DNA of 35,951 nt from Sandarakinorhabdus cyanobacteriorum. GTDB taxonomy: Bacteria > Pseudomonadota > Alphaproteobacteria > Sphingomonadales > Sphingomonadaceae. Every line of letters starts with the position of its first letter. Positions within the stretch are counted from its first letter, which is position 1. A program made the translations under genes and the position numbers. Shown one piece after another: positions 3,885-10,964 of this stretch. Below the pieces are notes generated by a model. It saw only the letters and a program-made list of their open reading frames with translations, was not told where the DNA came from and did no database searches. Location: positions 1-35,951 of the forward strand of contig NZ_NOXT01000099.1 of NCBI RefSeq assembly GCF_002251755.1. The letters run 5' to 3'.

Positions 3885-4643
3885 TCAGGCCACCGGCGCC
3901 AGCCGGGCTGGCACAAACAGATCGGGCGGGATGATCTTGTCCTGCACCGCCTTGAAGCGCGGTTCCTTGCGCAGCGGATCGAGCCATGGATCAACGGCGA
4001 TGTCGTTCAGGCCAGCGTCCTGAGCTTTCAGCGCCTTCTCGATCGAAGCGAGTGCGGCTGGGATCTCGCCGCGCTGTGCGTGCAATACCGCAAACTGGTA
4101 ATGCGCGGTGCCATTGTCCAGCGTGCGAAACGCTGCCAGGGCCGCATCGGCGGCGGCGCGATTGCCGGCCTGGGCCTCGATCAGGGCGCGATAAAACGGC
4201 TGCTGCCAGCCCTTCGGCACCTGCGGGACCAGTTGGCGTGCCGCATCGGTTTGACCCAGCGCCAGCAGCGTATTGACGAGAAGAGTCGCGCCGCGCCGGT
4301 TTTTGCTCTCCTGCCTGAGGCGCTGGATCAAGGTAGCGGCCTCCTGATAGCGGCGGGCAAAGAAAAGTGCGTTGGCACGCGCAAGCATTGCGCCCCGGTC
4401 CAGTGGGTCGAGCGTCAGGGCACGCTCGGCGATGCCAACGGCACGATCAGGGTCCACCGGGGTCAGCAAAAGCGCGAATGATGACACCACGCGACCATCG
4501 CCCGGGGCCAGTGCGAACGCCCGTTCGATTTCAGCAAGCGCATTGCGGATGTCCAGTATCCCTATGAACGCGTTGGCAAGGGCTGCATGGGCAAAGCCGG
4601 ACCCTGGCGCAATCGCAACCGCCTGCCGTGCCGTTGCCAGCGC
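3885..4643 (-). pseudogene. TPR C-terminal part of the TIR protein, separated by a frameshift
   Basis: From about 4643 a second frame opens with ALATARQAVAIAPGSGFAHA and continues through repeat units such as RVVSSFALLLTPVDPDRAV, ALTLDPLDRGAMLARANALF and AALASIEKALKAQDAG to the stop at 3885. These are tetratricopeptide-like helical pairs. The frame has no good start codon; the first candidate is GTG at 4490 inside a repeat. It makes sense only as the continuation of the TIR gene upstream, whose own frame turns into arginine-rich nonsense at the same place. Adding one base between AAG (4645-4643) and the next codon restores the join. I also suspect some TPR sequence is missing at the junction, because related proteins usually have a longer linker there. 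Confidence 0.7.
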
Positions 4644-5539
4644 TTCAGCGCCGCCACCACGCTGCTGGCGATCCGGCTCTGCACCGCCAGCACATCGCCG
4701 GCCGGCTGGTCATAACTTTGCGCCCAGCTCTGGGCGCCGGTCTTGCCATCCACCAGCTCTGCGCCGATGCGGATGGTGGCGGGGGACCGGCGCACGCTGC
4801 CAGTGAGGATGTGCACCACGCCCAGCTTTTCCGCCACGGCCGCCAGATCGGTGGCATCGCGGAACTGTTCGGAACTCACGCGGCCGATCACCTTCAGCCC
4901 GCTGATCTGGGCCAGGGCGTTGCGCAATTCCTCGGCAATGCCGTCGGAGAAATAGGCCTGGGCCGGATCGCCCGACAGATTGGCAAAGGGCAGCACCGCG
5001 ATGCTGGCGGTGCCGTCGTCATCGCTGTTGCCCATCAGCCGCCACGCGCCAACGCCGCCCGCCGCCAACGCCGCCACACCGGCTGCACTCCCGATCAGTG
5101 CGCGCCGGCTGGGTCCGGTTGCGGGCACCGGCCTCGGCGCCGCCCCCGGTGCGCCCAGCTGCCGCGCCACTTCGGCCAACACGGCGACCAGGCGCGGATC
5201 GCTGGCATTGCCCTTCCAACCGATCAGATCGGCCGATTGCCGCAGCTCAAACGCCACCGGCCGCTGGCAATCCTCGATCATCACCGGCATCAGCGTGCCG
5301 CTCTGCATCGCCACCGTGGCTTCGGATCGCACCCAATCCGATACCACCGCGGTTTTCGACCACAAAACGATCACCAGCCGCGACGCGCGCAGGGCATTTT
5401 CCAGCACTTGGTCATAAACATCGCCGGCGCGGATCTCGCGGTCCCACCACACATCATGGCCGGCCGCTGACAGCACGGCCGCCATCGCGCCGGCCACCGC
5501 CACATCCTGCCGGCTGTAAGACAGGAAGATATCAGGCAT
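4562..5539 (-). CDS. TIR-domain / TolB-N-like membrane protein, C-terminus frameshifted
   Basis: Starts MPDIFLSYSRQD at ATG 5539 behind GAGGTGG; the frame extends to 5581 but without a ribosome site. Residues 1-130 form a TIR domain with box DIFLSYSRQD, WWDREIRAGD, and the Glu in YDQVLENAL (about E47) at the place of the NAD-cleaving Glu of enzymatic TIR domains. One membrane segment follows (RALIGSAAGVAALAAGGVGA), then a TolB-N/FlgO-like domain: SIAVLPFANLSGDP, YFSDGIAEELRNAL, LTGSVRRSPATIRI. After VVAALK the last 27 codons (RWQRHGRRLRL and onward) do not look like protein; the true continuation is the TPR frame ending at 3885. The intact product would be about 550 residues. This architecture is common in sphingomonads; its job is not established, and NADase activity is inference. 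Confidence 0.75.
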   Translation of the reverse strand: MPDIFLSYSRQDVAVAGAMAAVLSAAGHDVWWDREIRAGDVYDQVLENALRASRLVIVLWSKTAVVSDWVRSEATVAMQSGTLMPVMIEDCQRPVAFELRQSADLIGWKGNASDPRLVAVLAEVARQLGAPGAAPRPVPATGPSRRALIGSAAGVAALAAGGVGAWRLMGNSDDDGTASIAVLPFANLSGDPAQAYFSDGIAEELRNALAQISGLKVIGRVSSEQFRDATDLAAVAEKLGVVHILTGSVRRSPATIRIGAELVDGKTGAQSWAQSYDQPAGDVLAVQSRIASSVVAALKRWQRHGRRLRLRQGPALPMQPLPTRS

Positions 5540-5684
5540 GCACCACCTCTGTGGCACCGCCCGAGCCCTCGCAAAGGGCACAGTATCGCATCAGTCGCCC
5601 CCGCATGCCGGCATCATTCAGAAAATATCATGCCAGCATACAAAGTCGTTGCTGCGGTGAAAAGCCAGTTGCGGCATACCCCGC

Positions 5685-7060: not shown

Positions 7061-8569
7061 ATGCCCACGCTTGTGCCCATTCTTGGCGATCAACTCAGCC
7101 ACAGCCTCGCGGCCTTGCGCGCCGTGCCGAAATCCGACGCCGTCATCCTGATGATGGAGGTGGCCGAGGAAGCCACCTATGTCCCCCACCACCCGCAGAA
7201 GATCGCCCTGTTTTTCAGCGCGATGCGCCATTTTGCCGAGGAGCTGCGGCAAGCCGGCTGGCGGGTCGATTATGTCCCGCTCGACGATCCCGCCAACACC
7301 GGCAGCCTGTCCGGCGAAGTCACCCGCGCCGCCACCCGCCATGGCACGGCGCGCACCCTGGCGGTGAAGGCCGGCGAATGGCGTGTGCTCACAGCGCAGC
7401 AGCATTGGCCGAACGTCACCCTGCTCGATGATGACCGCTTCCTCTGCAGCATCGACCAGTTCGCCGCCTGGGCAGGCCCGCGCAAACGCCTGATCATGGA
7501 GGATTTCTATCGCATCATGCGCCGCCAGACTGGCCTTCTGATGGACGGTGACCAGCCCATCGGCGGCCAATGGAACTTCGACACCGAAAACCGCAAGTCC
7601 GTGCCCAAGGGCCAGCGCTTCACGCCCCCCATCCGCTTCGCCCCCGACGCCATCACCGCCGAGGTGCTCGCCCTCGTCAACGCCCGCTTCCACAATCATT
7701 TCGGCACCACCGCCAGCTTCGCCTGGCCGGTCACCCGCACCCAGGCCCTTGCCGCGCTCGATGATTTCATCACTCACCGCTTGGCCGGCTTCGGCGATTA
7801 TCAGGATGCCATGGTCACCGGCGAGGATGTGCTCAACCACAGCCTCCTCTCCCCTGCTATCAACCTCGGCCTGCTCGGCCCGCTCGAGGTCGCCCGCGCC
7901 GCCGAAGCCGCCTACCAGGCCGGTCACGCCCCGCTGAACGCCGTCGAAGGCTTCATCCGCCAGATCATCGGCTGGCGCGAATATGTCCGCGGCCTCTATT
8001 GGTTCGCCGGGCCGGATTACACGGCGCGCAACCATCTCGCCGCCACGCGCCCGCTGCCCGCCCTGTTCTGGGGCACCCCCACCGGCTTGAAATGCCTGGC
8101 TGAGGCCGTCAGCGCCACCGGCCGCAACGCCATGGCCCACCATATCCAGCGCCTGATGATCCTCGGCAATTTCGCCATGCTCACCGGCACCGATCCATCG
8201 CAAGTCCACCGCTGGTATCTCGCCGTCTATGCCGATGCCATCGAATGGGTGGAGGCGCCCAACGTCATCGGCATGAGCCAGTTTGCCGATGGCGGCCTGA
8301 TGGCCACCAAGCCCTATGCCGCCGGCGGCGCCTATGTGAACCGCATGAGCGACCACTGCAAAGCCTGCCGGTACGACGTGAAGCAGCGCACCGGCCCCAA
8401 AGCCTGCCCGCTGAACAGCCTCTATTGGGATTTCCTCGCCCGCCACGAGGAAGTTCTGAGCAGCAACCAGCGCCTCTGGCGCATATATGATGGCTGGCGC
8501 CGTTTCGCCCCCGACGAACAGCAGCGCATCCGCACCCAGGCCGCCCACTTCCTCGCCACCCTGGCCTGA
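7061..8569 (+). CDS. phrB: iron-sulfur (6-4) photolyase / bacterial cryptochrome (FeS-BCP)
   Basis: A 502-residue flavoprotein that should repair UV (6-4) photoproducts with blue light. It opens PTLVPILGDQLSHS, the usual start of this branch. Four cysteines at residues 345, 433, 436 and 449 (GLKCLAE; HCKACRY; PKACPL) match the [4Fe-4S] ligands of Agrobacterium PhrB (C350, C438, C441, C454) with a constant offset of five. The catalytic His pair is at 360-361 (MAHHIQRLM). The N-terminal half is the antenna domain, which in this family binds a lumazine. ATG 7061 follows GAGAG. Neighbours do not form an obvious operon; a DUF2256 gene, a family often linked with such photolyases, lies at 15.8 kb. 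Confidence 0.92.
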   Translation: MPTLVPILGDQLSHSLAALRAVPKSDAVILMMEVAEEATYVPHHPQKIALFFSAMRHFAEELRQAGWRVDYVPLDDPANTGSLSGEVTRAATRHGTARTLAVKAGEWRVLTAQQHWPNVTLLDDDRFLCSIDQFAAWAGPRKRLIMEDFYRIMRRQTGLLMDGDQPIGGQWNFDTENRKSVPKGQRFTPPIRFAPDAITAEVLALVNARFHNHFGTTASFAWPVTRTQALAALDDFITHRLAGFGDYQDAMVTGEDVLNHSLLSPAINLGLLGPLEVARAAEAAYQAGHAPLNAVEGFIRQIIGWREYVRGLYWFAGPDYTARNHLAATRPLPALFWGTPTGLKCLAEAVSATGRNAMAHHIQRLMILGNFAMLTGTDPSQVHRWYLAVYADAIEWVEAPNVIGMSQFADGGLMATKPYAAGGAYVNRMSDHCKACRYDVKQRTGPKACPLNSLYWDFLARHEEVLSSNQRLWRIYDGWRRFAPDEQQRIRTQAAHFLATLA

Positions 8570-8887: not shown

Positions 8888-9478
8888 TCAACCGGCAATC
8901 GCCGCCAGCGTGCCGCCAACCATCTGATCGATGAACAGCGCCAGCGCCGCATCCTCCACCTGTTCAAACCGCAACAGCGCCAGCGTGTGCGCCCCGCCCA
9001 CAAACAGCCGCGCCGCCATCGCCGCCCGCGCCGTATCGGCCGCCGCCGGGGCCAGGATCGCCCGCACATGCGCCTGCAATTCCGCCTGCAGCACCAGATA
9101 CCGCGGCCACACGTCGGCGCGCACGCCCGTGCTCCAATCCAGCCACACCCGCACCGCGTCCGGCTGCTCCACCGCCATGTCGGCCGTGTGCCGGGCCAGC
9201 ACGGTCAACGCCTCGGCCACGCCAACGCCGGGCCGCGCCGCCTGGGCCAGCATCGCCCGGATCGCATCGGCCACCGCCGCCAGCACCGCCGCCACCAGAT
9301 CGGCCCGCGTGCGGAAATAGGAATAGACCGCCGACACCGAAACCCCCGCCCGCGCCGCCACCTGTGTGTGGGTGGCGCGCGCAATGCCATGATCGGCAAA
9401 ACAGGCGATGGCATGCCCCATCAACTGGGCTCGGCGATCGGCCGGCAACAACCGGGTGCGGGCGGGCTTGGCGCTCAT
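8888..9478 (-). CDS. TetR-family transcriptional regulator
   Basis: A 196-residue protein. The N-terminal helix-turn-helix is canonical: AIACFADHGIARATHTQVAA, then RAGVSVSAVYSYFRTRADLV (residues about 23-60). The C-terminal ligand/dimerisation domain is alanine-rich and helical and not assignable to a ligand. ATG 9478 starts MSAKPARTRLL. It diverges from the diiron-protein gene across 79 nt that contain a large dyad operator, so it most likely represses that operon and itself until a small hydrophobic ligand binds. Confidence 0.9.
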   Translation of the reverse strand: MSAKPARTRLLPADRRAQLMGHAIACFADHGIARATHTQVAARAGVSVSAVYSYFRTRADLVAAVLAAVADAIRAMLAQAARPGVGVAEALTVLARHTADMAVEQPDAVRVWLDWSTGVRADVWPRYLVLQAELQAHVRAILAPAAADTARAAMAARLFVGGAHTLALLRFEQVEDAALALFIDQMVGGTLAAIAG

Positions 9479-9496
9479 GCCCCCGCTCTACCGGGG

Positions 9497-9544
9497 CTTA
9501 TTGACAAAAGCCACAACAAGCTTATTGTGTATCTTATCAATAAG
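9497..9544. promoter_or_regulatory. nested dyad operator between TetR and its target operon
   Basis: Two inverted repeats share one centre (9520/9521): an inner 18-bp palindrome (9512-9529, CACAACAAGCTTATTGTG, one mismatched pair) and outer arms CTTATTGA (9497-9504) and TCAATAAG (9537-9544) that match perfectly. The 7-mer CTTATTG occurs three times (9497, 9521, and inverted at 9538). A TTGACA box at 9501-9506 overlaps the outer arm. This fits binding by one or two TetR dimers that block both divergent promoters. Confidence 0.7.
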
Positions 9545-9557
9545 GGGGATTCGCACC

Positions 9558-10436
9558 ATGTCCACCACCAGCCCGCGCATGATCGTGCGTCGCATGGCCT
9601 TCCGCTTCGCCGCCACCCTGGGCGGCCACTGGAACCCGCAGCGCCCGCAATTCAGCCACATCGTCAACGCCGCCTCGCTGGCCATGCCCTATCTGGAACC
9701 CTATTTGATCGATACGATGCGCCAGGCCCGCGCCCGCATCAGCGATCCGCGCCTGCTCGCCGATATCGATCTCTACATCGGGCAAGAGGCCGCCCATTAT
9801 CGCCAGCACCAGCAGTTCAACCGCCGCCTGGCCGACATGGGCTACACCGCCGTCCCCGCCATGGAAGCAAGGCTGAAGGCCGATTATGCCGGCTTCGCCA
9901 AACGCCGCAGCTTCACCTTCAACCTCGCCTATGCCGAAGGCTTCGAAGCCATGGCGCTCGCCATCGGCCACATGCTGATCGAAGATCGGGAACATCTGTT
10001 TGGCCGCGCCGATCCCGCCGTCGCCTCGCTCATCCTCTGGCACTTCGTGAAGGAGATCGAGCACAAATCCGCCACCTACGATGTGTTCAAGGCCCTCGAC
10101 GGGCGCTATCTGTGGCGCATCTGGGGGCTGATCTTTGCCACCGTCCACATCATGGCCCGCACCCGCCAGGGCTATGCCGCCATGCTCCACCAGGAAGGCC
10201 TGTGGTGGCACTGGCGCTCCCGCCTTGCCACCTGGCGCCTGCTCGCCCACATCTTCCGCCGCCTCACCCCGCGCTTCCTCGCCGTGCTGCGCCCCGGCTA
10301 TGATCCGCGCCAGGTGCCCGATCCGGCCTGGGCCCAGGCCTGGTGGCGCCAGCACCACCAGGGCGATCCCGGCCTCGCCACGCTCGACACCCACCGCCTT
10401 GCCCACGCCGAACCCATCTGCATCGCGGCGGCCTGA
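9558..10436 (+). CDS. ferritin-like diiron protein (predicted metal-dependent hydrolase family, PF10118-type)
   Basis: A 292-residue protein from MSTTSPRMIVRRMAF. ATG 9558 has AGGGGGA upstream; the frame is open further 5' but that part overlaps the operator. It fits the family annotated as predicted metal-dependent hydrolase. The visible metal signature is E47, E77-x-x-H80 (GQEAAH), E130 (GFEAM; E127 is the alternative) and E166-x-x-H169 (KEIEHK). That is the E / ExxH / E / ExxH spacing of a four-helix diiron carboxylate protein, so oxygenase or aldehyde-type chemistry is as likely as hydrolysis (inference). It is co-transcribed with the membrane gene 3 nt downstream and likely controlled by the divergent TetR. 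Confidence 0.8.
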   Translation: MSTTSPRMIVRRMAFRFAATLGGHWNPQRPQFSHIVNAASLAMPYLEPYLIDTMRQARARISDPRLLADIDLYIGQEAAHYRQHQQFNRRLADMGYTAVPAMEARLKADYAGFAKRRSFTFNLAYAEGFEAMALAIGHMLIEDREHLFGRADPAVASLILWHFVKEIEHKSATYDVFKALDGRYLWRIWGLIFATVHIMARTRQGYAAMLHQEGLWWHWRSRLATWRLLAHIFRRLTPRFLAVLRPGYDPRQVPDPAWAQAWWRQHHQGDPGLATLDTHRLAHAEPICIAAA

Positions 10437-10439
10437 ACC

Positions 10440-10913
10440 ATGCACACCACACCCGCCCCACTGCCCGAACGCACCCGCGCCCTGCTCTTCCTCAACGGCA
10501 CCCTGCTGCTCGCCTTCTCGCTCATCGTCGGCTGGCACTGGTTCATCGCCCTGCTCGGCCAGCTCGTCGCCTGGCCGCTCATCCCCCCCATCGAACTGCA
10601 CGTGCCCAGCGACAGCCGCGCCTGGCGCATGGCCCATATGGAAGCCATCACCCACGGCCTCCTCCTCATGGGCTGGAGCGCCGGCGGCCGCTGGCTGCTC
10701 CTCTCCCCCCGCCAACAACGCATCTTCGTCGCCAGCGCCCTCACCACCGCCTGGCTCTTCACCGTCCCCGCCGCCGCCAACGCCCTCGCCGGCACCCGCG
10801 GCCTCGCCTGGAACAACGGACCCTTCCCCGGCAACATCACCGCCAACAACATCATCTTCCTCTTCGGCTGGCCCCCCTCGTCGCCGTCCACATCTGCTTC
10901 GCCCTCGCCGTGA
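10440..10913 (+). CDS. four-span membrane protein resembling styrene-oxide isomerase; frameshifted near the C-terminus
   Basis: As read, 157 residues ending in a serine/proline-rich tail (PPSSPSTSASPSP). A single extra C in the C6 run at 10872-10877 would instead continue LVAVHICFALAVIGVWRAV, a proper fourth membrane helix, to a TAA at 10952-10954 (171 residues). I take that as the true gene. Segments IELHVPSDSRAW, RMAHMEAITHG and GTRGLAW align with EFHVPGSPEGW, RAHSGPALNG and NRGLTF of styrene-oxide isomerase (StyC), as I remember that sequence. The haem-ligand His (H58 there, H66 here) is kept, but StyC residues N64, D95 and Y103 become H, T and A. So the fold and haem may be shared, with a different reaction. 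Start ATG lies 3 nt after the diiron gene stop. Confidence 0.6.
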   Translation: MHTTPAPLPERTRALLFLNGTLLLAFSLIVGWHWFIALLGQLVAWPLIPPIELHVPSDSRAWRMAHMEAITHGLLLMGWSAGGRWLLLSPRQQRIFVASALTTAWLFTVPAAANALAGTRGLAWNNGPFPGNITANNIIFLFGWPPSSPSTSASPSP

Positions 10914-10964
10914 TCGGCGTGTGGCGGGCGGTAAAGGCGATGCCGGCGGGGTAAGGCAGAAGAA

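Follow-up and report, generated by a model that had tools for sequence, protein, structure and literature searches.

Gene organization of the locus

The DNA studied here (the window) is a stretch of 35,951 nucleotides from Sandarakinorhabdus cyanobacteriorum and represents contig G000:C91 of a 3.53 Mb genome in 130 contigs. It carries a gene for a PF10118 protein (P0001) followed, at a distance of 3 nt as already noted in the preliminary description, by a gene for a small membrane protein (P0002) related to styrene oxide isomerase (SOI); a gene for a protein with a TetR_N domain is divergent from the pair, and the divergent promoter contains a conserved, imperfect palindrome (Table 1). In the tree of PF10118 proteins the nearest named row is that of Sandarakinorhabdus sp. 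AAP62. On the other side of the regulator gene, and convergent with it, a photolyase-related protein gene (PF04244) is located at 7061-8569 (+), likewise in the congener locus L009, and further away (4562-5581, minus strand) there is a gene whose product has a TIR domain (PF13676) at its N-terminus and, in a later part, weak similarity to a TolB propeller.

Table 1 Features of the locus (positions in the window)
Feature	Position	Strand	Basis or remark
TetR-family regulator gene	8888-9478	-	Divergent from the pair; PF00440, 41.6 bits (cut-off 24)
Putative palindromic operator	9497-9544	.	24+24 nt, 79% complementary, over TTGACA at 9501
P0001, PF10118 'Metal_hydrol' protein gene	9558-10436	+	PF10118, 2.9e-59
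Putative diiron ligand span, codons E47 to H169	9696-10064	+	PF10118 alignments
Codon 165 of the PF10118 gene, Lys (Glu in relatives)	10050-10052	+	Alignment
P0002, small membrane protein of the SOI fold; sequenced ORF, 157 aa	10440-10913	+	Orthologue fold and profile
H66 of the membrane protein, equivalent of the SOI axial haem ligand H58	10635-10637	+	Alignment
C6 run, frame change in the membrane gene	10872-10877	+	Family C-terminus runs on to 10954

The final residues of the membrane protein ORF as sequenced are foreign to its family, and the conserved C-terminus resumes in another frame past the C6 run; five congeners have intact copies. Moreover, P0001 has Lys at residue 165, a position occupied by Glu in 68 of 69 letters of the set of 78 loci described below and in 32 of 32 of the set of relatives. 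The frame break and K165 suggest that the window copy may be decaying, or the break may be a sequencing error; possible decay was counted against the functional reading that we favour.

The PF10118 protein, a predicted diiron enzyme

P0001 matches PF10118 with 201.2 bits (gathering score 33.2), covering 2-245 of 247. The residue set E47 / E77xxH80 / E130 / E166xxH169, which had been pointed out as having the spacing of a ferritin-like diiron enzyme, is present, and E47, E77, H80, E130, E166 and H169 are invariant in an alignment of 67 PF10118 sequences, as are R11, W25, Q76, H162 and E168. The PF10118 protein model (pLDDT 96.2, pTM 0.93) is almost all helix, with the putative ligand residues located within four predicted helices or at their ends, one set per helix. 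A Foldseek search with this model gave no match at E ≤ 0.001 (best E 0.061), and the top of the weak list was mostly occupied by diiron proteins, i.e. ribonucleotide reductase R2, CmlI (second, E 0.12, TM 0.45), stearoyl-ACP desaturase, R2lox and their kin. A search by sequence for solved relatives of PF10118 gave none that was convincing, and this, together with the weak fold list, was counted against our favoured reading. Based on the model and the alignments we infer that PF10118 represents a family of ferritin-like diiron oxygenases misnamed as a hydrolase. One paper names the family incidentally, as a candidate protease (PMC8960859).

The membrane protein, a distant relative of styrene oxide isomerase

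As a single sequence, the window membrane protein scored 27.7 bits (E 2.3e-6) on the StyC model NF045734, below the curated cut-off of 150 bits, and gave a weak match to SOI (E 0.12) in the PDB, while a profile built from 68 relatives retrieved both SOI sequences of the PDB set (E 1.5e-26 and 3.5e-24). The proposal that the structure is SOI-like was borne out for the predicted structure of the orthologue at locus L043, from Sandarakinorhabdus sp. AAP62 (pLDDT 94.2), which was modelled in place of the window protein (window residue numbers equal L043 numbers + 2) and matched 8pnu_A with E 1.5e-6 and TM 0.72/0.78; the next match had E 0.096. Judged by profile and predicted fold, the window protein is a distant relative of SOI.

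In SOI, H58 is the axial haem ligand; activity is lost in the N99A and Y103A variants and impaired in N64A and D95A (PMC11374702). For RoSOI1, R111 has been proposed to hold a haem propionate, and the D94A variant was still active in whole cells (PMC12502698). The check that H66 should face a haem pocket was addressed by alignment, in which H66 of the window protein corresponds to H58, and R120, which belongs to an RGL segment, to R112 (the propionate Arg); N64, D95, N99 and Y103 are replaced by H72, T103, F107 and A111, respectively. The preliminary description, according to which the haem-ligand His and RGL are kept and the catalytic residues are not, thus agrees with the alignment. Throughout the family (83 members; SOI numbering from here on) the axial His is kept in all 83 and the propionate Arg in 81 of 82 letters, a Glu directly follows the axial His in 78, and position 64 is always polar (N in 40, Q in 30 and H in 13). 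Eleven members retain N99 and three retain Y103. Among the PF10118-linked proteins only, Y103 is kept in 3/71 and N99 in 4/71, which counts against our favoured reading since both mutants are inactive in SOI. The D95 position is not discriminating, because three aligned StyC-type proteins that score over the cut-off have Ala there.

Co-occurrence of the two genes

Conserved co-occurrence was a check set beforehand, and its outcome, like that for the membrane protein structure, does not refute the earlier proposal. We collected 78 loci by scanning genome contigs with the peptides WRM[VA]HME and [AS]L[FI]VGW[QH]W, a procedure that favours HME-type proteins; L075 and L076 lie on one contig, and L043, L044 and L046-L048 are congener loci that were also seen through the genome (G) handles. 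Most of the loci derive from Alpha- and Gammaproteobacteria; the remainder comprise a few from Myxococcota and single contigs of Candidatus Binatota and Acidimicrobiales. Parvibaculum indicum DSM 25305 and Solimonas aquatica DSM 25927 are culturable carriers. A PF10118 gene was found within 1 kb for 71 of the 83 SOI-like proteins encoded at these loci, and the 12 unlinked ones include L090, which begins at a contig end with its upstream side unseen. In the congeners the membrane gene is patchy (5 of 23 searched) and each time adjacent to PF10118 (5/5).

Among 289 Alphaproteobacteria there were 37 membrane-protein matches in 21 genomes, and 17 of these had PF10118 within 1.5 kb, whereas the numbers of genes and the sizes of the genomes would lead one to expect approximately 0.12 linked cases; linkage was seen for 15 of the 17 best-scoring matches vs two of the 20 others. 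The same sample had at least 59 PF10118 genes over the cut-off (PF10118 counts in the class sample are in part lower bounds), 16 of them linked, and the family is therefore wider than the pair. In a sample of 398 genomes covering the phylum, six membrane-protein matches (E ≤ 1e-6) were present in four genomes and PF10118 in 63 genomes, and three of the six were linked (G000, G624 and G101:C14).

The order and strand of the two genes vary. The membrane gene precedes PF10118 in G180, G284, G150, G301 and G624, the genes are divergent in L098, L109, L112 and at the second G301 locus, and in the 78-locus set the diiron gene is downstream of the membrane gene in one case, the second copy in L119. 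L073 and L102 had also been labelled in this way from stop-to-stop ORF limits, and were rejected as the match coordinates put the diiron gene first. Adjacency holds in several branches, with order or strand changed, and even where the membrane proteins are only approximately 23-35% identical. At L107 (3727-5213, minus strand) an SOI-fold gene stands alone, and the gene after it, in the place of PF10118, encodes a SnoaL-like domain at the N-terminus.

On plasmids, the type II query gave no SOI-like protein at E 1e-5, and the type II PF10118 query matched 64 plasmid records, all below 60% identity (26.9% among the 15 matches listed). Plasmid pTol5 (L151, NZ_AP024709.1 47984-60760) has an unlinked PF10118 gene near genes for ferredoxin, cytochrome P450, an FAD-dependent oxidoreductase, and AraC and TetR regulators, and PF10118 genes similar to this one are present on 49 Acinetobacter plasmid records.

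Phylogeny and StyC-like linked copies

The membrane-protein tree has a window-like branch with H, F, A and T at positions 64, 99, 103 and 95, respectively, a second large linked branch in which position 64 is N, position 99 mostly I or F and position 103 S, a group without PF10118 neighbours in which N99 is kept and position 103 is S, and an 11-row branch that contains the three over-cut-off StyC-type proteins. Within these 11 rows, L136, L137, L140 and the second copies of L087, L088 and L119 adjoin PF10118 and keep N64, N99 and Y103; L145 retains N64 and Y103, and the second copy of L094 retains N64 and N99. Six of these proteins scored 78.1-128.2 bits on the StyC model, all below 150. None of the linked proteins scored reached that cut-off, and none of the five over-cut-off StyC matches in 26 genomes searched had PF10118 within 1.5 kb; both findings count against our favoured reading. 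StyC might have descended from a PF10118-linked form, which we regard as unsure since the tree is rooted arbitrarily and long branches meet in this region. In the PF10118 tree, one side holds 72 rows, 69 of them linked, and the other side 20 unlinked rows, including the paralogue encoded by the window's own genome; the unlinked rows were drawn mostly from relatives of that genome.

In L087 (5866-6997), L088 (6001-7023) and L094 (5334-6480) two tandem SOI-fold genes follow one PF10118 gene, the first being of the PF10118-linked type and the second nearer to StyC with N64 and N99 kept; position 103 of the second copy is Y in L087 and L088 and F in L094. Four genes in a row are present in Zhongshania sp. 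L119 (3338-6384): a StyC-like gene, PF10118, a second PF10118 and a second SOI-fold gene.

Regulator, operator and neighbouring genes

The TetR gene is present in four of five congener loci, and the contig of the fifth stops short of it. The outer arms of the putative operator, TATTGACA-28 nt-TATCAATA, are exact in the window and in L043-L048 (seven loci) and have two mismatches in L050, and in these near-kin loci (8/8) they are positioned upstream of, and directly before, the PF10118 coding region. Allowing up to two mismatches, the arms were found at none of the other 71 loci scanned, and at a single place in the 3.53 Mb genome. The suggestion that the pair shares a TetR operator is consistent with this predicted site over the promoter. 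Since the site occurs once in the genome and the arms are confined to near-kin loci, the regulator seems, judged from the DNA, to be dedicated to the pair.

Which regulator family is present differs between loci. For the nearest upstream genes (58, from 59 loci with a candidate after dropping L088) we recorded TetR_N in 16, TetR_C_33 in eight and PF13972 in seven, which are overlapping sets, and a PadR-type C-domain in three; for L098, L109 and L120 the upstream gene was replaced by hand with the direct PF10118 neighbour, a regulator or possible regulator, which inflates the regulator count. Attempts to derive a substrate from conserved neighbours were abandoned: besides regulators only short-chain dehydrogenases upstream (5/58) and alpha/beta hydrolases downstream (10/52, the 52 being a hand-thinned part of 57) recur, and the latter count is inflated by the relatedness of the Parvibaculum-type loci (cluster c5) in which they mainly occur. 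No electron donor gene or downstream enzyme common to the loci was found among the neighbours, as predicted by a simple gene caller that misses genes in A+T-rich loci, and this counts against our favoured reading.

Possible function of the gene pair

The gene layout, the family assignments, the conserved ligands, the SOI fold, the conserved operator and the repeated co-localisation were computed directly. Given local control, adjacency through deep divergence and changes in gene order, and two conserved metal sites, it is very likely that the PF10118 and membrane proteins work together, and that they do so as a diiron oxygenase and a haem protein is probable. Whether the haem protein is catalytic on the diiron product is closer to evenly balanced, leaning slightly to the doubtful side. 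The StyC-like linked copies that keep the catalytic residues favour such a role, while the chemistry is less certain for the main branches, which have lost Asn99 and Tyr103. Electron transfer to the diiron centre is the main rival.

We favour, tentatively and at somewhat less than an even chance, a TetR-repressed, substrate-inducible two-enzyme module in which a diiron oxygenase is followed by haem-dependent rearrangement of its product. Specifically, a hydrophobic compound would free the TetR protein from the operator and so induce the pair, and the cytosolic PF10118 protein would add oxygen to the inducing compound or to a related one. The membrane partner, with its SOI fold, would bind haem b through H66 where subunits meet, in the manner of SOI, receive the diiron product and rearrange it by Lewis-acid chemistry on ferric haem, in a pocket that would be devoid of SOI's Asn99/Tyr103 and still have a polar residue (N, Q or H) at position 64. 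The loading with iron and haem, the oxygenation, the hand-over and the class of substrate are thus proposals; a hydrophobic substrate is suggested by the membrane partner and, more loosely, by the PF10118 gene near the ferredoxin-P450-reductase set on pTol5. The closest parallel is the styrene pathway, where the epoxide formed by an oxygenase is rearranged by a membrane haem protein. Of the inducible two-metal-centre system put forward in the preliminary description, the dedicated inducible module is well supported; the two-step chemistry on the diiron product stays plausible and is indirectly supported by the linked StyC-like copies with their catalytic residues, but the window subfamily is devoid of these residues.

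Alternatively, the SOI-fold protein could be a membrane redox partner or anchor whose haem b passes electrons, e.g. from quinol, to the diiron centre. We consider this unlikely, albeit the strongest of the rivals: retention of the haem-binding residues with loss of N99 and Y103 in most linked proteins, the Glu after the axial His, and the absence of ferredoxin or reductase genes among the first 25 neighbour families listed would all fit, but the N, Q or H kept in every member at the substrate-side position 64 and the linked copies with the complete N64/N99/Y103 set speak against it. It is improbable that PF10118 acts as a genuine hydrolase or has a different metal bound, with the pair performing non-oxidative chemistry; the ligand spacing, its invariance and the ferritin-like diiron enzymes that occupy most of the fold-list top argue against this, even if the name 'Metal_hydrol', a family with no solved member and the weak fold match would allow it. 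Aldoxime dehydratase, and AurF/CmlI for the diiron step, provide the analogy for a diiron N-oxygenase converting an amine to an oxime-type product for a haem dehydratase, an idea that the rank of CmlI and a haem with a polar distal residue would suit and that we rate as very improbable, as the fold matches are weak and include many other diiron classes. Equally remote is adjacency by shared descent alone, which one gene order in most linked cases and the clustering of linked PF10118 proteins in one branch with three unlinked rows would favour, and which the divergence across which the pair persists, its changed order and strand and the excess of linked cases over expectation speak against.

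Extending the favoured two-enzyme reading, the SOI fold might be the haem-bearing membrane component of a widespread oxidation module that combines diiron and haem, its partner being one PF10118 branch; StyC would then be a specialist that swapped its diiron partner for a flavin epoxidase, and the haem pocket of the main branches would have been rebuilt to rearrange or dehydrate a hydrophobic product of the diiron protein. This is possible, though rather doubtful; if true, the SOI fold is no styrene speciality. We found no report on the PF10118/SOI-like pair in the open-access literature searched; one paper mentions both 'styrene oxide isomerase' and 'diiron', in separate contexts (PMC13209321). 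The recurrence of the pair as direct neighbours in numerous bacteria of distant relationship seems to point to a joint two-step reaction that apparently has not yet been worked out.

Comparison with known systems

The PF10118 protein resembles ferritin-like diiron enzymes (R2, R2lox, CmlI and stearoyl-ACP desaturase) in its predicted helical bundle and Glu/ExxH pattern, and differs from them in having neither a significant sequence match nor a Foldseek E < 0.06. The paralogue of the same genome (G000:C66) belongs to the same Pfam family and has the same ligand set as P0001, but has no SOI-like gene in the 9 kb read and groups in the separate branch of unlinked proteins. Its neighbourhood (L014, G000:C66:1-9000) has, in this order, a 2OG-Fe(II) oxygenase-like gene, PF10118, a Glu/Leu/Phe/Val dehydrogenase gene and an af470-like monooxygenase gene. 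Finally, the window membrane protein is like StyC/SOI (PDB 8pnu, 8pnv and 30tw; PMC11374702 and PMC12502698) in predicted fold, profile, axial His and propionate Arg, and both are small membrane proteins beside an oxidising enzyme. It is unlike StyC/SOI in the replacement of N64, D95, N99 and Y103 and in its score on the StyC model, and its partner gene is PF10118 instead of the flavin styrene monooxygenase StyAB.
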